DNA of 38,076 nucleotides from a bacterium (GTDB lineage Bacteria; SZUA-182; DTGQ01): NCBI GenBank assembly GCA_040755755.1, contig JBFLZW010000023.1, positions 1 through 38,076 on the forward strand, read 5' to 3'. Positions 5,847 through 32,002 of this stretch are shown here, in pieces (positions within the stretch are counted from its first letter, which is position 1; each line of letters begins with the position of its first letter). The notes beneath the pieces were generated by a model. The model did not search any database. It worked only from the letters and a program-made list of their open reading frames with translations, and was not told the origin of the DNA. A program made the position numbers and the translations under genes.

Positions 5847-5904
5847 TAAAAATTACTACATGTTTTTACCAATGACTCACCAGGCACTGAGAAGGGAGGG
5901 TAAC

Positions 5905-7659
5905 ATGAACAAAGCTGGAAAACTGCCCATAAAAACACTTATAAAAACACTTATAAGATCAGTTTTAAAACCACTCATGATGACAAGCCTTCTTGTTTTT
6001 ATTCTCTGGCATTACGCCGGGGCAGAGTGCTGGGAAGAGGTTGTGAGCAATGGATTCGGGGAGTTTAGTAACGATTATGCCTGGAGTATGGCAACTTTTC
6101 AGGGGAAACTGTATGTCGGAACACTCAATTCGCTGAGGGGGGCAGAAATCTGGAGCAGCAGCACCGGTGAACAATTCACCTGGAGGAGAGTGTACAACAC
6201 GCTGACTGCCAGTAATTCGGGGATACGCTGTCTGTATGCAGATGGGGATAAGTATCTTTATGCCTGTACATCCAGTGTATCTGGAGCTGATATAGTAAGA
6301 ACCGGCAATGGGTACTGGTGGATCCCTATCAGCAGAAGGGGTTTGGGAGATATGAGAAACACCACCGTTCGGTGCATGGCCCGGTTCGGAGAATATCTTT
6401 ATGCCGGCACCGGCAGCAAGATAGCCAGGTTGTACCGAAGCCGGGATGGGCTGAGCTGGGAACCGGTCAATACCGGAATGGAATCCACTCTGGTCAAGTA
6501 TCCGAAAACCTCGGTCGAGGTTATCAATAACATCCTGGTTGGAGAGCTGGAGGTATTTAACGGCCATCTCTACGCTTTCACCTGGACTGATGATCTGGCC
6601 GCGATTCGAGGCCCCTTGAGCAGGGTCACACTCAATGAACCGATCCTGAATGCTGCGCATTATATTCCAGGACATACTCCAGGATATACTCCAGGATTTC
6701 AGGGCGAAAATCATACTGTGGACGGCAATGCCGCCGCTGCCGCCGCCGCTGCTGTCGATGATACTGCTTCTCTTGCTGCTGCTGCTGACGATGAAAAAAC
6801 GTTTAAGAGTAAGTACGGATTCCTGGTACCAAACTATTTCAACCTCCAGGTATCGCGGGCTCCCGGTGCCTTTGAGGTGTGGCGAAGCAGTAATGGGACA
6901 AACTGGGAAAAGGTGGTGGGTCAGAATGATATTTACGGCAATGGGATGGGCTTTTCTCTGTACGATGCGGATAACCTGATGAACGATCTGGTTACCTGCG
7001 TGGCTGTTTTCAGGGATCAGGAGTCCCAGAAGGAGCATCTCTACCTGGGAACAGGCAATAGTGAAGGGAAAACAGGCATATGGAGAACATCCGAAGGTAC
7101 CCGATGGGTGAAGGTTTTGGATTTTTATGAATTGGGAGAAAGGAATAACTTTTATGTCTGGCGTATGATCCCATTCAAGGGAAGGCTCTTTGTCGGCACC
7201 TTTAACATGGGACCGGCTTCAGACCCTGGAGTAACCGGAGCGCAGATCTGGGTATCCGATACCGGCACACACGGCAGCTTTCACAAGCTGGTAGGCGATG
7301 GTTTTGGTGGAGACACCATAAGATTTTCAGGGATAACCATCCCGAAAAACTATGGAATTCGCTCCTTCGGCATCCTCAACGATACCCTGTTTGCAGGTAC
7401 CGCTACCATGCTCAGCGCGGTTGTTCCGGGCTTGCCGTTTGGAGTGACCATCGCTGGCAAATATTCCGGCTGTGAAATCTGGAAACTGGTCCCCGACGAG
7501 GAGTGCAACCAATATTTACCAGCCCCGGCTGCATTGTCAGGTTCATCGGAACAAGTCCAGCCTTCAGGCAAAATCACCCGGTCTTCAAATACCACACCAG
7601 GCACTGCGAATAATCACCGCTGGCAACGATTATCAGGTAAAAACCCAACCTATCGGTAA
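5905..7659 (+). CDS. Exported beta-propeller-like repeat protein, copy 1
   Basis: 584 residues from the ATG at 5905, chosen because GGGAGGGTAAC precedes it; the frame is open further upstream. A hydrophobic signal segment ends near HYAGAE. The body has repeating units of the form LYVGT-N-GAEIW-SS-G-W, typical of BNR/Kelch-like propeller blades. The exact family is not recognised. Compared with its three paralogues it has an insert at about 6658-6810 (repeated PGHTPGYTPGF and a run of eight alanines) and a C-terminal tail of about 50 residues after GCEIWKLVP. The blocks NDYAW, RCM, NGMGFSL, YVWRMI and GCEIWK are shared with the other copies. Copy 2 follows 11 bp later, so the two are probably co-transcribed. 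Confidence 0.8.
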   Translation: MNKAGKLPIKTLIKTLIRSVLKPLMMTSLLVFILWHYAGAECWEEVVSNGFGEFSNDYAWSMATFQGKLYVGTLNSLRGAEIWSSSTGEQFTWRRVYNTLTASNSGIRCLYADGDKYLYACTSSVSGADIVRTGNGYWWIPISRRGLGDMRNTTVRCMARFGEYLYAGTGSKIARLYRSRDGLSWEPVNTGMESTLVKYPKTSVEVINNILVGELEVFNGHLYAFTWTDDLAAIRGPLSRVTLNEPILNAAHYIPGHTPGYTPGFQGENHTVDGNAAAAAAAAVDDTASLAAAADDEKTFKSKYGFLVPNYFNLQVSRAPGAFEVWRSSNGTNWEKVVGQNDIYGNGMGFSLYDADNLMNDLVTCVAVFRDQESQKEHLYLGTGNSEGKTGIWRTSEGTRWVKVLDFYELGERNNFYVWRMIPFKGRLFVGTFNMGPASDPGVTGAQIWVSDTGTHGSFHKLVGDGFGGDTIRFSGITIPKNYGIRSFGILNDTLFAGTATMLSAVVPGLPFGVTIAGKYSGCEIWKLVPDEECNQYLPAPAALSGSSEQVQPSGKITRSSNTTPGTANNHRWQRLSGKNPTYR

Positions 7660-7670
7660 GGAGAAAGAAC

Positions 7671-9032
7671 ATGAAAAAAGCTATTAAACTATTCATCATA
7701 ACCAGCTTATTTATCCTTTTCTTCCACAATTCCTCCAGGGCGGATCATTGGGAGAGGGTTGTCGGTAAGGGATTCGGCGATCCAGCGAATGATTATGCCT
7801 GGAGCATGGAAACTTTCCGGGGAAAGGTATATGTCGGAACACTGAATCCCATCCGGGGTGCAGAAATCTGGTGCAGCAGCAGTGGAGAACAGGGGACCTG
7901 GAAAAGAACCTATAATGCCCGCACTCCCCTGGCCAATCTTGGGGTGCGCAGCCTGTATACCGATGGCAATCAGGCTTTGTATGCCTGTACCTTTAATTTC
8001 AGCGGGGCTGAAATTTTACGGACAACAGATGGGCAATCATGGGACAAGGTCAAGAAAAGCAGGGGAGGGGAAAACCGGAAAGATGATACCATCAGATGCA
8101 TGATCCGGTTTGGAAATTATCTGTATGGAGGAGGCGGTGGTAAAGGGGCTCAGTTGTATCGAAGCAGGAACGGCTCGAACTGGACAATGGTCAAGACTAA
8201 TCCGAGCTTTGAATCAACCAAGGTACCTGATCCGAATACCGGCGATATGGTCACCAACAATATTCTGATCGGAGAGATGGAGATCTTCAAGGGTCAGCTC
8301 TACGCCTTCACCTGGACCAGGGACATGGATATGGGCAACCTGATCGGGCAGGATATCAAGGACATGGCAGCACTCATTCCCAACTCTCCGGGAGCCTTCG
8401 AGATATGGCGGAGCAGCGATGGGACAAATTGGGAAAAAGTGGTCGGTAAGAATGATCCGTATGATAATGGAATGGGTTTTTCCCTTCATGATCCTGAAAA
8501 CCTGGCCAACGATGTTGTTACTTCAGTGGCGGTATATAAGGGAAAGTTATATCTGGGAACCCAGAATGATAATGGGAACAGCAGCATCTGGAGAACAGAG
8601 GATGGAGAGGAATGGGAAGAGGTTCTGGATTTTTTCAGCCTGGGCGAAAAGTTTAATTTCTATGTCTGGCGCATGATTCCCTTTAACGACAAGCTGTACA
8701 TCGGTACTCTGAATGTGGCCCTGAACTATGGCAACGGCTCAGCAGCAGGAGGCGAAGCAACCGGTGCTCAGGTCTGGGCTACCGACTCAGGTGATCGCGG
8801 TACTTTTTACAATCTCGTTCATAATGGATTCGATGGCGAAACCATATCTTTCAAAGGTAAGGACATTCCCAAAAATTACGGCATTCGCTCCTTCGCCATT
8901 CTGGAAGATACTCTTTTCGCGGGTACGGCAACCATAGCCAGTGTTCCCGTTCCGGATGATGATGATCCGGGCCGGAGAACCATTGCCGGCAAGAATGTTG
9001 GCTGTGAAATCTGGAAGCTGATACAGGACTAG
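7671..9032 (+). CDS. Exported beta-propeller-like repeat protein, copy 2
   Basis: 453 residues beginning MKKAIKLFIITSLFILFF, with signal cleavage likely after NSSRA. The mature protein starts DHWERVVGKGFGDP and runs through six or so repeats (KVYVGT, ALYACT, YLYGGG, QLYAFTWT, KLYLGT, KLYIGT, LFAGTAT), each followed by an IW/QVW strand and S-G-W turn. It ends in GCEIWKLIQD without a tail. AAGGAGAAAGAAC is a good ribosome site. It is the most compact copy and shares its first six residues with the relic at 10952. Function unknown; probably periplasmic, surface or secreted. Confidence 0.82.
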   Translation: MKKAIKLFIITSLFILFFHNSSRADHWERVVGKGFGDPANDYAWSMETFRGKVYVGTLNPIRGAEIWCSSSGEQGTWKRTYNARTPLANLGVRSLYTDGNQALYACTFNFSGAEILRTTDGQSWDKVKKSRGGENRKDDTIRCMIRFGNYLYGGGGGKGAQLYRSRNGSNWTMVKTNPSFESTKVPDPNTGDMVTNNILIGEMEIFKGQLYAFTWTRDMDMGNLIGQDIKDMAALIPNSPGAFEIWRSSDGTNWEKVVGKNDPYDNGMGFSLHDPENLANDVVTSVAVYKGKLYLGTQNDNGNSSIWRTEDGEEWEEVLDFFSLGEKFNFYVWRMIPFNDKLYIGTLNVALNYGNGSAAGGEATGAQVWATDSGDRGTFYNLVHNGFDGETISFKGKDIPKNYGIRSFAILEDTLFAGTATIASVPVPDDDDPGRRTIAGKNVGCEIWKLIQD

Positions 9033-9222: not shown

Positions 9223-9263
9223 ATTTAGTAATGAACAGATTAACCTTAATCGTGGAGAGGATC

Positions 9264-10622
9264 ATGAGAAGAGCTTTGAGATTATCAATCATGGCAGCCG
9301 GTTTTTTAGTTTTCATATTGGTCCACAATTGCAGTGCAGAAACCTGGGAGAGGGTTGTCAGTAACGGCTTTGGCGATCCGGGTAACGATTACGCCTGGAG
9401 TATGAGCATATTTAAAGGGAAATTATATGTCGGGACCCTGAATATTACCGGAGGAGGTGAAATCTGGAGAAGCAGCAACGGGGAGGCGGGAAGCTGGCAA
9501 AAGGTTTACGATCATATCCCTCTCTCCAATCTGGGGATACGGCATTTGTATGCTGACAAGGACCAGGCTCTTTATGCCTGTACGGTAAGTTTTACCGGCG
9601 CTGAGATTTTAAGGACAACCGATGGGCAAAAATGGACCAGGGTTGAAAAGGGAATGGGAAACCGGGCTGATATTGCCTTTCGATGCATGACCCGGTTTGG
9701 AAATTACCTGTATGCCGGCGCCGAAAACTCGGCAGATAAAGGGGCACAGCTCTATCGAAGCACAAACGGCCTCAGATGGAGCCCGGTTATGACCAAACCC
9801 GGCTTTGATTCGACGAAAGTTCAAGATCCTAACACCGGCAAACTGGTTATCAATAATATCATGATCGGAGAACTGGCGGTCTTCCACGATCAGCTCTACG
9901 CCTTTACCTGGACAAGAGAAGGCAGACATTCTGACGTTATCGAGTACATGCTCGGTCTGGAAGCTGATAATCCCAGGGTTCAATCGCCTCCTCCCGGTGC
10001 TTTTGAGGTGTGGCGAAGCAAGGACGGAGTCAATTGGGAAAAGGTGGTGGGCCAGGATGACCCGTATGGTAATGGTATGGGCTTTTGCCTTCACGATCCT
10101 GATGGATTGTCCAATGATGTCGTCACCTCAACCACGGTTTTCAAGGGGCAGTTATACCTGGGAACCATGAATGATAATGCCTGCAGTACTGTCTGGAGAA
10201 CGGCTGATGGGACGCAGTGGACCAAGGTACTGGACTTCTTTGACCTGGGAGAGAGAGCCAATTATTATGTCTGGCGCATGATTCAGTTCAAGGATAAGCT
10301 TTTTATCGGGACTAATAATGTAGGGCCGATTACAGCTCCCGGAGTGACCGGAGCGCAAATCTGGGCTTCCGAGTCGGGTGACCGCGGCACCTTTTACAAC
10401 CTTGTTCACAATGGGTTTGATGGAGAAACCTGGTCCAATGGTTCGGGTGTAGAAATACCGAAAAATACCGGCATCCGTACCTTTGCTGTTTTCAATGATA
10501 CCCTGTTTGCAGGTACAGCTACGATACCGAGCGTTCTTATAGTTAACAGGAACAGCCTGGTTGATCGGCTGACTATCGCTGGCAGGGATGCAGGATGCGA
10601 GATATGGAAGATGGTCCCCTGA
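9264..10622 (+). CDS. Exported beta-propeller-like repeat protein, copy 3
   Basis: 452 residues from the ATG at 9264 (MRRALRLSIMAAG), preferred over the ATG at 9231 because GGAGAGGATC lies just before it. Signal cleavage is likely after NCSAE. The repeats run as in copy 2: KLYVGT, ALYACT, YLYAGA, QLYAFTWT, QLYLGT, KLFIGT, LFAGTAT. The C-terminal part (VTGAQIW, FYNLVHNGFDGE, AGRDAGCEIWKMVP) is closest to copy 4. It has its own upstream inverted repeat and a clear terminator at 10648-10705, so it is probably a single transcription unit. Confidence 0.82.
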   Translation: MRRALRLSIMAAGFLVFILVHNCSAETWERVVSNGFGDPGNDYAWSMSIFKGKLYVGTLNITGGGEIWRSSNGEAGSWQKVYDHIPLSNLGIRHLYADKDQALYACTVSFTGAEILRTTDGQKWTRVEKGMGNRADIAFRCMTRFGNYLYAGAENSADKGAQLYRSTNGLRWSPVMTKPGFDSTKVQDPNTGKLVINNIMIGELAVFHDQLYAFTWTREGRHSDVIEYMLGLEADNPRVQSPPPGAFEVWRSKDGVNWEKVVGQDDPYGNGMGFCLHDPDGLSNDVVTSTTVFKGQLYLGTMNDNACSTVWRTADGTQWTKVLDFFDLGERANYYVWRMIQFKDKLFIGTNNVGPITAPGVTGAQIWASESGDRGTFYNLVHNGFDGETWSNGSGVEIPKNTGIRTFAVFNDTLFAGTATIPSVLIVNRNSLVDRLTIAGRDAGCEIWKMVP

Positions 10623-11290: not shown

Positions 11291-11425
11291 AATGCCTTTT
11301 AAAGGTATGATACTTACCAATGTGAGCGAACCGATTAATTTTTTACGTTCTTCCACCATTTGTTTCAGCGGATAGTCTGATGTACTGATAATTGTGTGCA
11401 GGTATTCATAATCTTCAACGAACAT
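11291..11425 (-). pseudogene. Possible antisense gene fragment
   Basis: The minus strand from an ATG at 11425 reads MFVEDYEYLHTIISTSDY and then PLKQMVEERKKLIGSLTLVS before running into the repeat element at 11290. The composition is protein-like, but there is no ribosome site and the family is not recognised. It may be the start of a gene cut off by the repeat. Confidence 0.2.
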
Positions 11426-11437
11426 AGGGAGGGTCAC

Positions 11438-12808
11438 ATGAAAAGGGTTTTGTCATTACTTATTACCGCTGCCTGTTTGATTCTCTGTCTGAACTGCGGC
11501 TCCTTTGCAGAAGAATGGGAACAAGTCGCCAGTAATGGGTTTGGCAATCCATCCAATGATTATGCCTGGTGCATGGCTACGTTTAAAGGAAAATTATATG
11601 TTGGAACCCTCAATACTCTCAGTGGTGGGCAGATATGGAGAAGCGGCACAGGAGACCCTGACAGCTGGGAAATGGTGTATGATTCTCGCTCTTCCATTTT
11701 CTCCAATGCCGGGGTGCGTACCTTATATTCTGACAATGATCAGGCCCTCTATGCCAGCACCTTGAACTCTCTTGGGGCTGAAATCATGAAAACGACGGAT
11801 GGGAAATCCTGGAGCCTGGTGAAAAAAGTGATCGGGAGGCGGTGGAATACCACCATCCGGTGCATGGTCCGTTTTGGAGACTATCTTTATGCAGGTGCGG
11901 GAGGCTACGGAGCCCAGTTATATCGGAGCAAGGATGGCGTGAATTGGAGACTGGCCAAGACCAATCCGCCCTTTCAGTCTATCAGGGTCTATGATCCCCA
12001 AATCGGGACAGCGGTTGTCAATAACACCATGATCGGAGAGCTGGCGGTTTTCCATGATCAGCTCTATGCTTTCACCTGGACCAAAGAGGCCAGATATCGT
12101 GATGTGGCTGACCATGTCTTCGGTTACGAAGTGGACAGACCGACTTATTATTCCAACTCTCCCGGTGCTTTCGAGGTGTGGCGAAGCAGTGACGGCATCA
12201 ACTGGGAAAAGGTAATCGGTAAGGATGACAAATACGGCAATGGAATGGGACTGAGCCTGCGTGATCCCGAGGGTCTGGCCAACGATGTAGTTACTTCAGC
12301 TATCGTTTTCAACGATCGGCTGTATATGGGCACACAGAACGCCAATGGAAACAGCTCCATCTGGCGAACATCCGATGGGACGACATGGACCAAGGTGCTG
12401 GATTTCCTTGAGTTGGGAGAGATAGCCAATTACTATGTCTGGCGCATGATTTCCTTCCAGGACAGGTTGTTTGTCGGCACCATGAATGTTGGCCCGGCTA
12501 CAGCCCCAGGGGTGACCGGAGCACAGGTCTGGGTTTCTCCATCCGGTGATCCCGGTTCGTTTCAGAATCTCGTCCACAATGGCTTCGACGGAGAAAGCTG
12601 GACCAACGGCGCAGATCTGGAAATACCCAAAAATATTGGTGCCCGTACGTTCGGCATTCTGAACAATACTCTTTATGTAGGCACGGCTGTCATACCAAGT
12701 GTTTTGATTCCACGGAGATATAACGGCGGCGGATATAAATTCGGCGATCGTCCGTTAGCGATTGCCGGAAGAGATGTCGGGTGCGAAATCTGGAGGCTGG
12801 TCCAATAG
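11438..12808 (+). CDS. Exported beta-propeller-like repeat protein, copy 4
   Basis: 456 residues from the ATG at 11438 (MKRVLSLLITAAC), chosen because AGGGAGGGTCAC precedes it. Signal cleavage is likely after GSFAE; a cysteine in the hydrophobic region makes a lipoprotein conceivable but no clean lipobox is seen. It has the same order of repeats as copies 2 and 3 and the same ends (EEWEQVASNGFG and GCEIWRLVQ). It differs in having YAST where the others have YACT, so that cysteine is not essential to the fold, while the RCM and GCEIW cysteines are kept in all four. No terminator is evident downstream; repeat DNA begins within 70 bp. Confidence 0.82.
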   Translation: MKRVLSLLITAACLILCLNCGSFAEEWEQVASNGFGNPSNDYAWCMATFKGKLYVGTLNTLSGGQIWRSGTGDPDSWEMVYDSRSSIFSNAGVRTLYSDNDQALYASTLNSLGAEIMKTTDGKSWSLVKKVIGRRWNTTIRCMVRFGDYLYAGAGGYGAQLYRSKDGVNWRLAKTNPPFQSIRVYDPQIGTAVVNNTMIGELAVFHDQLYAFTWTKEARYRDVADHVFGYEVDRPTYYSNSPGAFEVWRSSDGINWEKVIGKDDKYGNGMGLSLRDPEGLANDVVTSAIVFNDRLYMGTQNANGNSSIWRTSDGTTWTKVLDFLELGEIANYYVWRMISFQDRLFVGTMNVGPATAPGVTGAQVWVSPSGDPGSFQNLVHNGFDGESWTNGADLEIPKNIGARTFGILNNTLYVGTAVIPSVLIPRRYNGGGYKFGDRPLAIAGRDVGCEIWRLVQ

Positions 12809-23984: not shown

Positions 23985-24398
23985 TTATTCCAGCACCCTG
24001 CTGAAAAAGTCGTGGTGCTCTTCTTCCTGGGCCAGAATTGATTCGAATAACTGGCGGGTGGTAGGATCATGTTCGCGATCAGCCAGATCGATGATCCCCC
24101 GGTAATGGTTGATCGCATCCTCTTCCTGTTTCTTGTCCAGTTGAATCATCTCGTGAACGCTCGTTCCGACATTGATTGGACCCGGCTGGGTAGTGGGAAT
24201 TCCACCCAGATAATTCAATCGGTCAGCGATAGCCTCTGCATGCTTCATTTCCACGATGGATATTTTCCGTAACTCGTCTTTCAGTGTCTCTCCGGTGATG
24301 CCTTTTTCCTGAACGTGCTGCCACATATACTGGATACTTACCGCCAATTCCCTGGCAATTGCCTGATTTAACATTTCTTTCAACTTATCTGAAGCCAT
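23985..24398 (-). CDS. Bacterioferritin-like (ferritin-superfamily) protein
   Basis: 137 residues predicted to fold as a four-helix bundle. Candidate di-iron ligands are E17 (IARELAVSIQYMWQH), E50 and H53 (VEMKHAE), E92/E93 and the EEEHHDFF motif near 125-131. This E, ExxH, E, ExxH pattern defines ferritin-like iron-storage or peroxide-handling proteins. It is shorter than classical bacterioferritin (about 155-160 residues) but normal for the ferritin-like proteins of anaerobes. AAGGAGGGAAGG is a very strong ribosome site, suggesting high expression. It is transcribed divergently from vapB. Confidence 0.88.
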   Translation of the reverse strand: MASDKLKEMLNQAIARELAVSIQYMWQHVQEKGITGETLKDELRKISIVEMKHAEAIADRLNYLGGIPTTQPGPINVGTSVHEMIQLDKKQEEDAINHYRGIIDLADREHDPTTRQLFESILAQEEEHHDFFSRVLE

Positions 24399-25511: not shown

Positions 25512-25582
25512 AATTTTTATACAGGCAATATATTGTTTGTTCTGGTTAGTATTTTGGATAATAGCTTTATAAGGAGGAAATC

Positions 25583-28501
25583 GTGAAAAAGAATTTCGTG
25601 TCAACTTTTCTGGTAATATTTGGATTAGTGGCTGGAGAAGCGATATTGGTGATGTTTTACGCTCCCCGCCGGGCCGGAGCTGATAGTCAGAGCATCGCCC
25701 GAAATCAGGCCATCATCGAAGGAGTCAACTGGCTGATCGACCGTCAATCAGCAGCAGGCGGGTGGGAGCCTTACTCCCTGGTTATCGGCAATTCTCTGGC
25801 TGTCAGGGCTTATGCGGCTGCGCAGGAACGCTTTTCTTCCCCCTGTGCTCTTCTTATCGACAGGCTCAAGAGGCTGCAATCACCTGACGGAAGCTGGGAT
25901 GAAAATATCACCGGCACTGCTCATGCGGTCTGGGCTTTAATTGAGGCCGGGGAGGACAGAAACTCACTGATCATGCAAAATGCCCTCGGGTGGTTAAGGT
26001 CTCAGGCCCGGCGCGATTGTGCGGATATCGGCACGGGAAACACGAAAAATATTTCTTTAACCCTTATCGCTTTACTGAAAGCGGGTGAACCCCGTGATTC
26101 TCAGGTGATTGTCGATGGAATAACCTGGTTAAAGGCTAACCAGAATTTCGACGGATTCTGGGGTGCATTTGCCGGTGAATCGAGTGTGGCCTGGGTGAAA
26201 GAGGCGGTTATAGCCTTGATTCTGGCTGAATCGGAATCCAGTCCGCAGGTCCGGAAAGCCCTTGAATATCTGCGCGCTCATTATTCGGAATACAGCGGCT
26301 GCGACGCTACCGAAGGATTTGAGGTTTTCATCTCTGCCGGGAATACCGCTTTCGTGCAGGTTGGTCAGGCAAAGGTACTGGCAGGACAAAATGAGGATTT
26401 TGGCTGGGGAAAGTTTCCCGGCTGGCCCAGCCAAAATATCGAAACCGCCAGAGCCGTACTGACTCTGGCCCAAAGCGGCTATGAGAGCGAGCGGCTTAAG
26501 AATGCCTTAGCCTGGATGGAAAGCCACATTTCAGAGACCGGGGATTATGGAGGCGATTATCGTGTGCCATCGTCAACAGCATGGGCTGTTTTAGGGTTAT
26601 CCGCGGCTGCTGACATCTCCGCCTCTTTGCAGGATGATGTGCTTCCCGCAAGCCTCGAGCTGGCCACCGGGCTCTTGATGCAATCCCAGAATGGAGGCTG
26701 GGCCTGGTGGAGCCTCTATCATCCGGAGGTCATCGGCAGTGAAACGGATAATACCGGGCTGTGCGTCTGGTCATTATATCAGGGCAATGAAGAAAATTCC
26801 TTTTTCGCCAGACAGCAGGCAGCCGCGTCACTTTCCTCTGGTCAGAACAGGGATGGCGGATGGGGTGGCCTGTGGAGAGGGGCCACGGTGAAGAGCACAG
26901 TTTCTTCCACGAATTTTGCTTTACTAGCCTTACTAAGTGCGGGATACGGCAGGACAAATCCAAATCTCGCTCAGGGAATTGACTATCTTATAGCCAACAG
27001 GGCAGATGGACATTGGGAAAGTGTGGGTCAAACAGCCATGTCAACGATTATTATCAAAAAATCCCGATACGATGACCAGGTCGCGGACAAGGCCGCAACA
27101 TGGCTGCTCCAGAGCCAGAATGACGATGGCGGCTGGGGTCCGAAGAAGGGTGATGTCAGCACTGTGGCCAGTACGTCCATGGCCATGCTGGCCCTGGCTG
27201 AATGTGAACACGAGGGCTTTCCCCTGGCCAGGGGCGCTGCCTGGCTGCTGGCTGCCCAAAACGACGATGGAGGGTGGGGCGATCTTTCCGGAGCATACGC
27301 AAGCAATACGGCCAGCACTGCCCAGGCAGTCTGGGCTTTGTCCCAGGCCGGGTATCCTGCGGGAGTGGAGTTTGAAATCGTGCTGGATCGGGAATCCGCC
27401 TGTCCCGGTGACCAGGTGGTGGTGAATCTCCTGGCTGACAATGAGATCACCAGTTCACTGGCCCGGATTATTGATCCGCAGGGAAACGTCACCTCCATCG
27501 ACCTTGCACCTGCCTTCAATGACAGCACCGGGCAGTCATCCTGCCACTGCCAGGCGACCTGCTCTCTCGATATCAGCGCTCCGGCAGGTACCTATACCGT
27601 GGCTGTCGATGCCTACTCACCGGCAGGAGATTCCAGTATCGCCGCCACCTTCGCCGTTTATCCACTGCATTCCTTCTTTCGGGACGCTGATGCTGACGGC
27701 TGGGGCAATCCGGATGATATCTTCACCAGCTGTCAGATGCCGCCAGGGTATGTGATGAATCATCAGGATTCCGACGACAGCGATCCGAATACCGGTCCCC
27801 GTGCCACCAAAAACAGCGTTCATGCAGATTGTCCTGAAATTTCCGGACAGGTAAGCGGCAGTCTGGAAATCAAGGGAGCCAAGGGCAGGTTGGAGCAGGA
27901 TATTCTGATTGGAGTAAAGATTAAAAATACAGCCGGTCAAATCTCTTCCTTTGGATTTCAGGTTACTTATGATGCCGGTGTCCTGGAGTACACCGGTTTT
28001 GAGAGCGGTGAGCTGCTCAGCTCCTTCCTTTTTTTGAATGTCAACCCTGTCGGTTCAGGCTGTCTCAAGGTGGGAGGATTAACCTCCCTGGGTGGTATCC
28101 CTCAAGATGCGAACGGTTATCTGGTCTGGTTGAAATTTACGGTAAGAGGCGGACAGAAAGGCGGACTTTATCCCATACAGCTCAAGGAACTGAGAGATCA
28201 TCTGGCCTGTTTCTCTTCATCTCATGGCTCCTTTGTTTATCTCTGCCCTGAGGATCTCAACGGAGATGAAAATGTAACCCTGGATGATGTAGCCCTGGCC
28301 TTCCATTGCTACCTTGAATCCGGTCTCTGTGCCGATTATTTCGATCTCAATCATGATGGTGAAGTGACCCCCCTGGATGCTCTGCAAATTTATCAAAGGT
28401 GCCGGGAGCACGATTCTGCACAATCTCAAAGCACTTCAACTATAAGACCGCTAATTCCAATGCCAAAACACCCAGGCAGGCCAGCAGGGTCAGAGGGGTG
28501 A
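25583..28501 (+). CDS. Secreted toroid-repeat protein with MopE-like, cohesin and dockerin modules
   Basis: 972 residues. After a signal peptide (cleavage near RRAGA), residues 40-615 hold many prenyltransferase / squalene-cyclase-type alpha-toroid repeats, each with a QW-like motif such as QSPDGSW, QNFDGFWG, QNRDGGWGG, QNDDGGWG. No DXDD catalytic motif is seen within them, so terpene cyclase activity is unlikely. An Ig-like linker is followed by a MopE-like calcium/copper motif (DADADGWGNP with CQMPPGYV, about 695-740). Residues 752-888 look like a cohesin domain (GVKIKNTAGQISSFGFQVTY). Residues 887-945 form a type I dockerin with two EF-like loops, DLNGDENVTLDDV and DLNHDGEVTPLDAL. A 30-residue proline-rich tail ends the protein. 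It likely sits at the cell surface. It overlaps the next gene tail-to-tail by 62 bp. Confidence 0.85.
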   Translation: MKKNFVSTFLVIFGLVAGEAILVMFYAPRRAGADSQSIARNQAIIEGVNWLIDRQSAAGGWEPYSLVIGNSLAVRAYAAAQERFSSPCALLIDRLKRLQSPDGSWDENITGTAHAVWALIEAGEDRNSLIMQNALGWLRSQARRDCADIGTGNTKNISLTLIALLKAGEPRDSQVIVDGITWLKANQNFDGFWGAFAGESSVAWVKEAVIALILAESESSPQVRKALEYLRAHYSEYSGCDATEGFEVFISAGNTAFVQVGQAKVLAGQNEDFGWGKFPGWPSQNIETARAVLTLAQSGYESERLKNALAWMESHISETGDYGGDYRVPSSTAWAVLGLSAAADISASLQDDVLPASLELATGLLMQSQNGGWAWWSLYHPEVIGSETDNTGLCVWSLYQGNEENSFFARQQAAASLSSGQNRDGGWGGLWRGATVKSTVSSTNFALLALLSAGYGRTNPNLAQGIDYLIANRADGHWESVGQTAMSTIIIKKSRYDDQVADKAATWLLQSQNDDGGWGPKKGDVSTVASTSMAMLALAECEHEGFPLARGAAWLLAAQNDDGGWGDLSGAYASNTASTAQAVWALSQAGYPAGVEFEIVLDRESACPGDQVVVNLLADNEITSSLARIIDPQGNVTSIDLAPAFNDSTGQSSCHCQATCSLDISAPAGTYTVAVDAYSPAGDSSIAATFAVYPLHSFFRDADADGWGNPDDIFTSCQMPPGYVMNHQDSDDSDPNTGPRATKNSVHADCPEISGQVSGSLEIKGAKGRLEQDILIGVKIKNTAGQISSFGFQVTYDAGVLEYTGFESGELLSSFLFLNVNPVGSGCLKVGGLTSLGGIPQDANGYLVWLKFTVRGGQKGGLYPIQLKELRDHLACFSSSHGSFVYLCPEDLNGDENVTLDDVALAFHCYLESGLCADYFDLNHDGEVTPLDALQIYQRCREHDSAQSQSTSTIRPLIPMPKHPGRPAGSEG

Positions 28502-29822
28502 TCATCAGACCATAGCGCACGAACTCACTGAAAGAAAGATGGAAATCTTTGGTATGCAGAATGCTCATCCACATGATCCCGGCCAGGGCTCCGATAGGGG
28601 TTATATTGGCTCCGAGGTTTGATCCGGCGGCTGTAGCCAGGGCAGCGGCAAGAAGGTTTTTCCCGGTGAGGCCGCGAATAACGGATACCGAGGCCACCGT
28701 CATCGGGATGTTATTGAGGAAGTTGGCCGAGAGGGCTGAAACCGTTCCATAGACGAGGCCATAGGCAGCAGCCGATGGACCGCAGATATTTCTGAAAAAA
28801 AGCCCGATTTCACTGGTCACTCCGTAAAGATGCAGGGCCTCGACAGTGACGAACAGCGACAAAACAAAGGGAACTACTGTCCAGGGCATTCTTTGCAGGG
28901 TTGAGCCAAGGACAAATCTTTTCTTTTCCCTTATGCGCTGCCGCAGCAGGGCCATTGATGAATCCCGGAGAATAAGAATAAAGAGCAGTGCCAGGGCAAA
29001 GGCTAATGAAATAGTCCACATTTCGATCCCCAGGTAGGGTGCAATGGCCAGCGCCACAATGCACCCGCCGAGCAGCAGGAGCCCAAGTGCGGCTCCGGTC
29101 TTGTCGGTCAGGGCTTCGAAAGGATCGATCTTTTGGCTGACCGTGAGCGGCCGGGAAATGCTCTTTCGAAAAACGGTGAACAGCCCGAATACACTGACCA
29201 GTCCTGCGGCCAGGGTAGGTAAAAACATCCATTTGAAATATCTGTCAAAATGCAGGTTGAAGGCTGCTGCCAGCAGGATATTGGTCGGATTGCCGATGTA
29301 GAGCATCATACTCCAGGTGTTGGCTGCAAAGAATTCGGCAATCAGATAGGGTTTTGGATCTATCCGGGCATTTTTGGCAAAATAGTAGATGAATGGGGTA
29401 AAGGTAAGAATGATAATGTCATTTGAGGTAAAGACGGTAAGCACTGCAACCATGATGTACAGGGAGAAAAACAGGCGCTTGCCATCCGATCCGGCCCACT
29501 TCAGAGCGAGCCGGGCGCAGCATTCGAAAAAGCCGGTGATGTCGAGGAAAATGCTCATGAACACCATGGACAGGAACAGAACCAGAATACCGAATGGGTT
29601 GAGTCCGTGTCCTCCTTTGAGCCCATTGAGGACCTGGCTGTAGTCGAGGATGCCGAAGGTCATGATCAGGGTTGGCCCAAGGAGTGCGCCGAGAAAATAG
29701 CTTTCGAGTTTCAGGTGCCGCCTGCCCATTCTGATATAGAGGTAGGGCCTCCTGAGAATGAGGTAAATGGTCAAGAGACAACTGATGATGAATATGCCGT
29801 GAACGGAAAGTTTTCCTGCCAT
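28440..29822 (-). CDS. ArsB/NhaD-type ion transporter (IT superfamily)
   Basis: About 460 residues from the ATG at 29822; a TTG two codons upstream is an alternative. Eleven or so hydrophobic segments. TSNDIIILTFTPFIYYFAK, AEFFAANTWSMMLYIGNPTNILLA and the second-half mirror NFLNNIPMTVASVSV with GSNLGANITPIGALAGIMW are the inverted-repeat signature of the ion transporter superfamily closest to ArsB and NhaD. The substrate could be arsenite, sodium/proton or a dicarboxylate; no ars genes are nearby, so arsenic export should not be assumed. The ribosome site is poor. Confidence 0.88.
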   Translation of the reverse strand: MAGKLSVHGIFIISCLLTIYLILRRPYLYIRMGRRHLKLESYFLGALLGPTLIMTFGILDYSQVLNGLKGGHGLNPFGILVLFLSMVFMSIFLDITGFFECCARLALKWAGSDGKRLFFSLYIMVAVLTVFTSNDIIILTFTPFIYYFAKNARIDPKPYLIAEFFAANTWSMMLYIGNPTNILLAAAFNLHFDRYFKWMFLPTLAAGLVSVFGLFTVFRKSISRPLTVSQKIDPFEALTDKTGAALGLLLLGGCIVALAIAPYLGIEMWTISLAFALALLFILILRDSSMALLRQRIREKKRFVLGSTLQRMPWTVVPFVLSLFVTVEALHLYGVTSEIGLFFRNICGPSAAAYGLVYGTVSALSANFLNNIPMTVASVSVIRGLTGKNLLAAALATAAGSNLGANITPIGALAGIMWMSILHTKDFHLSFSEFVRYGLMITPLTLLACLGVLALELAVL

Positions 29823-29994
29823 TAACAACTTATTGAAATAGAAAACCTATTGAATAATTCTCCAATTTAACGATGAAAATGCCACCCAGGTATGCCCTGT
29901 AACCGGAATTTTTTGAATGTAGCCTGATGATGGCCCGCTTGTCAAGAACAAAAGCATGCTCTTTTGTGTTTGCATCTGGAAGAGAATAGCCAAA

Positions 29995-30186: not shown

Positions 30187-30711
30187 TTAGATAAGCGCCG
30201 CAGGATCCAGATATATTGGCGGCGGGGCGAGTGGCCCGAAGTTCGTCTCCAGGTAAAGGAGAGCGGCAGCATTAGCTGGCGGCACATTTCCAAAGAGCCA
30301 GAGTGGATCAGTAGGTGGCAGGAAATCATAGAAAGGAGGAAGGGGCAGCAGAATCGGATCTCCGACTGCATCCAGCAAATAGGCAGGTGGCCAGAGGTTT
30401 ATCCCAAACAGAGGATCGTAATAGGCCATGCCTATGGGAGTATTATAGAGCAGCCAGGGATTTGGCAGGGCAGGATCCCAGGTCAGGCCCGGCTCCACAT
30501 CCAGGATGGTGGAGGGGACTAATTCGGTGACAATCGGTTCGGGTAAACCCGTAAGCGGATCAACGGGAGACAGGGCTGGAGACCATAATGGCCACAGGGT
30601 GTTATAAGGAGGCATGGCAACCCAGTTTTGGGCTTTGGCAATCGGTGAATATACTAAAAAGAGAGCAAGCAGGCTGACCAAGATAATGGCGAAATTTCTT
30701 TTGCTGACCAT
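30187..30711 (-). CDS. Exported PPYNTLWPLWSP-family protein, member B
   Basis: 174 residues from the ATG at 30711 (MVSKRNFAIILV), chosen because AAGGAAAGGAAA lies before it; the frame is open 20 codons further. The signal peptide ends SPIAKAQ. The mature part starts NWVAMPPYNTLWPLWSPALS and matches member A closely in the first two thirds (PWLLYNTPIGMAYYDPLFG, NLWPPAYLL). The last third is divergent and proline-rich, ending LDPAALI. The mature protein has no cysteine and few charged residues. It has its own terminator and is separated from member C by a large inverted repeat, so the two are not one operon. Confidence 0.8.
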   Translation of the reverse strand: MVSKRNFAIILVSLLALFLVYSPIAKAQNWVAMPPYNTLWPLWSPALSPVDPLTGLPEPIVTELVPSTILDVEPGLTWDPALPNPWLLYNTPIGMAYYDPLFGINLWPPAYLLDAVGDPILLPLPPFYDFLPPTDPLWLFGNVPPANAAALLYLETNFGPLAPPPIYLDPAALI

Positions 30712-30784
30712 CTCAAATTTCCTTTCCTTATTTTGCTGGGGGGTTAGTAAACACAGTGGTGGACAACACAATTCCTTGCGTGGT

Positions 30785-31194: not shown

Positions 31195-31749
31195 TCAGAT
31201 GAGAGTCAACCCGGCAATTGCACCGGTAGTCAATAAAGGAGCAAATTGCGGATAGCTGGTATAATAGGCGCTGTTGCCCACCGGAACATTGGCACTGAGC
31301 CAGCTTGTGGCAGTCGGCAGCAGGGTAGTCCACTTGATCAGGCTCAGGTTGAGGGGCAGAGGAACTCCCAGAGGGCTCAGGAGATAGGATGGCGGCCACA
31401 GGTTAATACCGAATAAAGGATCGTAGTACACCATGCCTGATGGGGTATTGTACAAAAGCCACGGATACTTCTGATTGACTGCATCCCAGGTCAGTCCCGG
31501 CTGGACGGGAAGAACAGTGTCTTTGGTCAGACTGGTGACAATAGGTGTCGGGATACCAAGAGCATTGGGTGGAGAGAGAACGGGCGACCAGAGTGGCCAC
31601 AGGGTATTATAGGGAGGAAGGGGCCACCAGTTGAGGGTTGTAGGCACCAAGGCAGCCTGACTGAGAGAAGTCAGGGCTAAAAGAGCAAATGCAAGAACAG
31701 CCAAACCTAATAGACTTTTTTTTGGGCAGATTACCTTTCGTAAATTCAT
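31195..31749 (-). CDS. Exported PPYNTLWPLWSP-family protein, member C
   Basis: 184 residues from the ATG at 31749 (MNLRKVICPKK), chosen because AAAGGTGG lies before it. The signal peptide has a longer basic N-region and ends SLSQA. The mature part begins ALVPTTLNWWPLPPYNTLWP and keeps the family blocks: PTPIVTSL, TVLPVQPGLTW, PWLLYNTPSGMVYYDPLFG, NLWPPSYLL, NVPVGNSAYY. It lacks the proline-rich end of A and B and stops at GAIAGLTLI. The ends therefore vary while the core of about 100 residues is fixed. Function unknown. Confidence 0.8.
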   Translation of the reverse strand: MNLRKVICPKKSLLGLAVLAFALLALTSLSQAALVPTTLNWWPLPPYNTLWPLWSPVLSPPNALGIPTPIVTSLTKDTVLPVQPGLTWDAVNQKYPWLLYNTPSGMVYYDPLFGINLWPPSYLLSPLGVPLPLNLSLIKWTTLLPTATSWLSANVPVGNSAYYTSYPQFAPLLTTGAIAGLTLI

Positions 31750-32002
31750 ATCTAACCACCTTTCCAATTAATAATGACGTTGAGAATCAGACAAACACTT
31801 AGCTAAAATCTGCTCTGTTCATACCCCCTTTTCTTTTATCCCCCCTTTAACATGGACCGAGACTGCTGGAAACATAAGCCAATAAATACCTCCAAAAACA
31901 ATGGACGAGCAATATATCAATAGCATTATTATAAGGACAATCAAACACAAAACTGATTGACAACAGTCTGCATGCGGATTAACTCACGCAGGAAGGAGAC
32001 AG

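Follow-up and report, generated by a model that had tools for sequence, protein, structure and literature searches.

Cohesins and dockerins outside cellulosomes have been listed from many genomes, and the assemblies they form are largely open. In cellulosomes, the dockerin of a scaffoldin is usually of another type than its cohesins, by which self-binding is avoided. From the non-cellulosomal Archaeoglobus fulgidus, few cohesin/dockerin proteins are known. ANME archaea encode an extensive set, in which some proteins combine a dockerin with up to five cohesins, and what these proteins assemble is largely open (PMC9012536). For the syntrophic sulfate-reducing partners of ANME, cohesin/dockerin complexes are described, including one adhesin with adjacent modules, and a role in adhesion is proposed (PMC10553843). 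‘Ca. Stygibacter’ (Cloacimonadota) has dockerin-tagged peptidases and glycoside hydrolases and a large scaffoldin in a cellulosome-like complex (PMC8542988).

The system proposed here is a variant of this kind, of which Archaeoglobus, ANME with their sulfate-reducing partners, and Cloacimonadota offer known examples. The window, a stretch of 38,076 nucleotides (contig JBFLZW010000023.1 of assembly GCA_040755755.1), encodes a protein that we consider, with a probability of about 0.7, to belong to a non-cellulosomal system of assembly by cohesins and dockerins that spans the genome; we infer its binding, its surface location and the function of its toroid domain.

The Toroid Protein and Its Modules

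An open reading frame for 972 amino acids lies at 25583-28501 on the forward strand, with a GTG start and the Shine-Dalgarno sequence AAGGAGG closely 5' of it (25571-25577). The same-genus genome G001 encodes a 1109-aa orthologue with 61-63% identity that keeps all modules and has an additional E/P/S-rich repeat linker, placed between the MopE motif and the cohesin. In both genomes the gene is flanked by genes that Pfam and synteny identify as encoding a ferritin-like protein (23985-24398, reverse strand) and a convergent ArsB/CitMHS-type transporter (28440-29828, reverse strand). The reading frame is a real one, and chance is excluded because the orthologue retains every module and the flanking genes. 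A phage origin was also considered, and phage records gave no match.

Several other secreted proteins are encoded in the window. Similar ones stand in tandem at 7671-9032, 9231-10622 and 11396-12808 (forward strand), and also at 5860-7659, with a GCEIWKL/GCEIWRL-like motif close to each end; in three of them DUF6242 matched weakly, below its cut-off. Two related small proteins rich in Pro, Leu and Trp (30187-30771 and 31195-31767, reverse strand) both contain the motif PPYNTLWP and have no Pfam match.

The first-pass annotation had described a secreted protein with cyclase-like toroid repeats but without the cyclase DXDD motif, and this description is supported. The N-terminus reads by eye as a signal peptide (aa 1-34, MKKNFVSTFLVIFGLVAGEAILVMFY...AGA; 25583-25684). 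It is followed by an alpha/alpha-toroid of the squalene-cyclase/prenyltransferase type (about aa 39-600, 25697-27382), which matches SQHop_cyclase_C (8e-26) and Prenyltrans (1.2e-9) above the curated Pfam cut-offs and terpene cyclases in the PDB (3.7e-12), and along which a motif scan found repeated QW-like motifs. A model built from two sequences was too weak (pLDDT 62) to draw conclusions from; its best Foldseek matches were squalene-hopene cyclases, at high rmsd. The motif scan found no catalytic DXDD in the toroid of the window protein or its orthologue; the only D.DD of the window protein (aa 729) falls within the MopE-like stretch. The protein thus shares the QW-repeat toroid with squalene-hopene cyclases but differs from them in being secreted and in lacking the DXDD motif and any further evidence of a cyclase. 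With DXDD missing and a signal peptide present, it seems unlikely that it is a functional terpene cyclase, and the toroid is probably a binding domain.

Next comes a putative Ig-like beta stretch (about aa 603-695, 27389-27667), which has no Pfam match and is proposed from the sequence and from homology to a sister protein (match over aa 659-745). A MopE-like metal motif had also been proposed between the toroid and the terminal modules. Its position (aa 698-740, 27674-27802) stands, it recurs in sister proteins, and the orthologue has it intact, with 42.2 bits for PF11617 against a cut-off of 27; in the window protein it is degenerate, having lost its Cys and its second half, and stays below the Pfam threshold.

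At the end of the protein cohesin and dockerin indeed stand side by side, as they do in the orthologue. The cohesin (aa 752-885, 27836-28237) matches PF00963 at aa 761-868 (6.9e-7, 30 bits vs. a curated cut-off of 24.1) and the dockerin (aa 888-940, 28244-28402) matches PF00404 at aa 890-937 (1.5e-6, 28.7 bits vs. 22.9). Lineage-specific HMMs gave 6e-55 for the cohesin (aa 752-885) and 2e-21 for the dockerin (aa 888-939), values that are not independent because rows of the window protein were in the underlying alignments. Structure prediction, which the first-pass annotation had suggested as a check, gave an AF2 model of the two-module cassette with pLDDT 92.1 and pTM 0.79. In this model the cohesin is a nine-stranded jelly-roll, with strands between model residues 11 and 137, and the best 50 Foldseek matches are all cohesin structures, including 2xdh of A. 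fulgidus (9.1e-11). The dockerin is modelled with two F-hand helices and matches solved dockerins in profile searches. The suggested sign against the modules, loss of the calcium-binding residues, was not seen: calcium-ligand positions are all retained in loop 1 (aa 891-902, 28253-28288; D-L-N-G-D-E-N-V-T-L-D-D) and in loop 2 (aa 921-932, 28343-28378; D-L-N-H-D-G-E-V-T-P-L-D), as read from the sequence and the dockerin alignment.

The Altered End of the Dockerin

The dockerin of the window protein has a different C-terminal end (28395-28501, forward strand). DNA homology to G001 stops at 28394 and restarts at 28444, and about 425 bp separate the same two points in G001, where about 450 bp lie between the dockerin-protein gene and the transporter gene. 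The final residues of the dockerin are therefore replaced (DALQIYQRCREHD... vs. DALLIFRHYLKYLK in the orthologue) by a tail without homology in the orthologue, and the reading frame overlaps the convergent gene. The family ending DALC[LI]FxxYLGxPSCLD is accordingly missing, and the second F-hand helix is predicted at model residues 181-200, where the sequence end is replaced. A frameshift was considered and rejected: the +1 frame yields DALCKF and then loses similarity, and the frame as it stands keeps the I/Y hydrophobic pattern. Replacement or deletion is favoured because the DNA homology simply ends at 28394. There may also be an assembly error at this place.

Against the tag family of its own genome the dockerin scores 79.6 bits. 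Among the other full-length members a single one is similarly low, with 77.2, and all others lie at 102-131, so that these two are the most diverged. The dockerin of the window protein is strongly diverged and, because of this divergence and the loss of its original end, may be weak or non-functional.

Cohesin and Dockerin Proteins in the Genome

A genome search, also suggested by the first-pass annotation, found cohesins or dockerins in about 37 proteins in all. The genome of the window species (5.26 Mb, 97.6% complete) gave 28 cohesin matches, of which 25 exceed the cut-off, and 41 dockerin matches; matches to the tag-type dockerin number 34. In protein sets built from stretches of genome, and with HMMs made in this analysis, fourteen proteins are fused, with a cohesin followed after 1-7 residues by a dockerin, 16 have a dockerin without an adjacent cohesin and seven have only cohesin; the corresponding numbers in G001 are 13, six and five. 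Relatives in the class have smaller numbers, and the tag-type dockerin fades beyond the genus. At several loci cohesin and dockerin genes adjoin (contigs C67, kept in C122 of G001, C27 and C61). In one pair of proteins (L039:206-1558, forward strand; G001 L239:6806-8173, reverse strand) the cohesin is apparently split by an inserted domain, which is DUF333 in the copy of the window species.

The dockerins form a distinct, Cys-rich family with conserved cysteines and the alignment consensus C.GDLNGDG.ITP.DALIAF.CYL..GPC..CADVN.DG.VTP.DALCLF.KYLG.PSCLD, and their two repeats are near-symmetric (D.N.DG.[IV]TP.DAL), like those of type I dockerins. C-terminal dockerins often finish exactly in CLD, and KYLGxPSCLD directly before a stop codon also occurs in two Desulfobacterales. 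Desulfococcaceae bacterium HSG8 has at least five nearby cohesin/dockerin reading frames on one contig (L083:1533-14600), with the ending KYLGNPSCLD. A tree places ten cohesins of cohesin-only proteins in a group separate from the fused cohesins; its support is moderate (87). This split between most cohesin-only and fused cohesins fits what two partner specificities would give.

Most tagged proteins have secretory N-termini as judged by eye. They include gingipain-like C25 proteases and one papain-like protease, CotH, PQQ and NHL propellers, NosD beta-helices, VWA, a polysaccharide deacetylase, a META-domain protein and a CO dehydrogenase with a Tat signal. The latter is a 751-aa protein (L058:4713-6965, forward strand; L242:5674-7968, on contig C55 of the same genome) with the Tat motif SRRNFIK and a C-terminal dockerin tag. 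It is the catalytic subunit of an anaerobic Ni-Fe CO dehydrogenase (TIGR01702, 578 bits vs. 478; CO dehydrogenase in the PDB, 9e-170) and, judging from its motifs, is apparently exported. The flanking reading frames listed beside its gene include no obvious CO dehydrogenase accessory gene. A secreted protein with GGLYGLYG repeats is encoded close by (L242:2195-3031, reverse strand).

Among the cohesin-only proteins, both species have a lipoprotein-like one in which a long disordered linker lies between two cohesins (L046:6558-8039; G001 L227:6923-8758; both forward strand). Its lipobox, read by eye, is FPGC or LAGC. These proteins are candidate surface anchors. Three cohesin-only proteins (L041:7521-8621, L030:5804-9001 and L051:5150-11101) and three in G001, where this kind is kept (L235, L223 and L233), have low-complexity tails rich in Gly, Tyr, Trp and Ser with aromatic ends, for example WFTWF, TSWSF and SWYLLY. 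Surface location of the tagged proteins is suggested by the signal peptides and lipoboxes.

No glycoside hydrolase family matched any tagged protein scanned, and GH9, GH48 and CBM3 gave nothing above cut-off in the genome; on these grounds a cellulosome was rejected, in line with the non-cellulosomal setting that the first-pass annotation had proposed. Its statement that no scaffoldin is near holds locally, but the genome as a whole is rich in cohesins and dockerins. A scaffoldin with many tandem cohesins was not found, with at most two cohesins per protein above the cut-off, at which more divergent cohesins could be missed.

Clostridial cellulosomes share with it the type I-like cohesin and dockerin folds with two calcium loops. 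ANME resemble the present genome in having many cohesin/dockerin proteins without cellulose degradation, dockerin and cohesins in one protein and a proposed surface attachment, but they are archaeal and S-layer based, often with ABC substrate-binding proteins as cargo (PMC9012536), whereas here the cohesins are on bacterial lipoproteins, the dockerins are Cys-rich and the cargo consists of proteases, propellers and the toroid. In one ANME-2 genome the tag profile matched 83 times, with scores of no more than about 50 bits. The sulfate-reducing partners of ANME likewise have secreted bacterial proteins in which a cohesin adjoins a dockerin, with a proposed role in cell-cell adhesion, but no toroid is reported in the part of that account drawn on here (PMC10553843). 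‘Ca. Stygibacter’, likewise outside Clostridia, has C25 and other peptidases with dockerins, but also GH18/GH57 cargo and a scaffoldin of 3,755 aa that bears CBMs and cohesins in tandem (PMC8542988), whereas the proteins found in the present genome include fused cohesin-dockerin cassettes but neither a scaffoldin of that sort nor a tagged glycoside hydrolase. A. fulgidus has the same cohesin fold, but its few cohesin/dockerin proteins contrast with the number found here.

A Proposed Docking Network and Its Alternatives

In the reading we favour, the Cys-rich dockerins would clip varied secreted proteins to others that are secreted and carry a cohesin. The envelope anchors would be cohesin-only proteins, chiefly the two-cohesin lipoprotein, and fused cohesin-dockerin units would act as adaptors that extend the network. 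Through it the toroid of the window protein would be displayed. A simpler arrangement, proposed by the first-pass annotation, is that each fused unit binds the next head to tail, giving chains of the toroid protein at the surface. This is possible and compatible with the 14 fused proteins and the 13 of the same genus, in which the very short linker probably disfavours canonical self-pairing on structural grounds. However, the cohesin-only anchors and the large number of dockerins that lack an adjacent cohesin suggest a heterotypic network, scaffoldins of cellulosomes usually avoid such self-compatible types and the dockerin end of the window protein is altered. We therefore consider such chains unlikely, and simple homopolymers account less well for the wider set than a general docking network that includes anchors. 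The same short and conserved spacing could also mean that the two modules of a chain pack on each other as a rigid, calcium-stabilised C-terminal domain without a linking role. The pTM of the cassette model is a hint that the modules are oriented to each other in a defined way, and there is a shared Cys close to the junction. Nevertheless, this seems quite unlikely: 16 proteins have a dockerin and no adjacent cohesin, seven have cohesin and no dockerin, and since the dockerin covers a face of the cohesin in solved complexes, a tether of 1-7 residues may not reach.

It is highly improbable that the dockerin-like tail serves for recognition by a machine of export or anchoring and not as a partner of cohesin. 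It is at the extreme C-terminus in 21 of 30 dockerin proteins of the genome, often with the exact CLD end, and two Desulfobacterales have the identical ending at the stop codon, but five copies are internal and four are N-terminal, and this varying position fits a binding module better than a sorting signal. Moreover, the calcium loops are intact and the same genome has many cohesins. A last alternative concerns only the window species, where the toroid protein could be a decaying copy whose tail is no longer functional. The degenerate MopE motif, the read-through tail that overlaps the next gene and the low score of the dockerin against its own family would agree with this; against it, no stop interrupts the 972 codons of the gene, conservation extends over toroid and cohesin, and none of the calcium ligands is lost. 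Decay appears somewhat doubtful.

Within the docking network, we tentatively suggest, at less than even odds, that two cohesin specificities, lipoprotein anchors, fused adaptors and varied cargo make up a general protein-wiring kit on the bacterial surface and not a polysaccharide-degrading machine. The genus gives a compact, repeated parts list of anchors, adaptors and cargo with clear sequence classes, so that a small matrix of binding assays could test partner specificity directly. Similar systems can be searched for with the KYLGxPSCLD tag and with the fused cohesin-dockerin module, and a CO dehydrogenase that bears a dockerin and is exported by Tat would extend the docking idea to redox enzymes.
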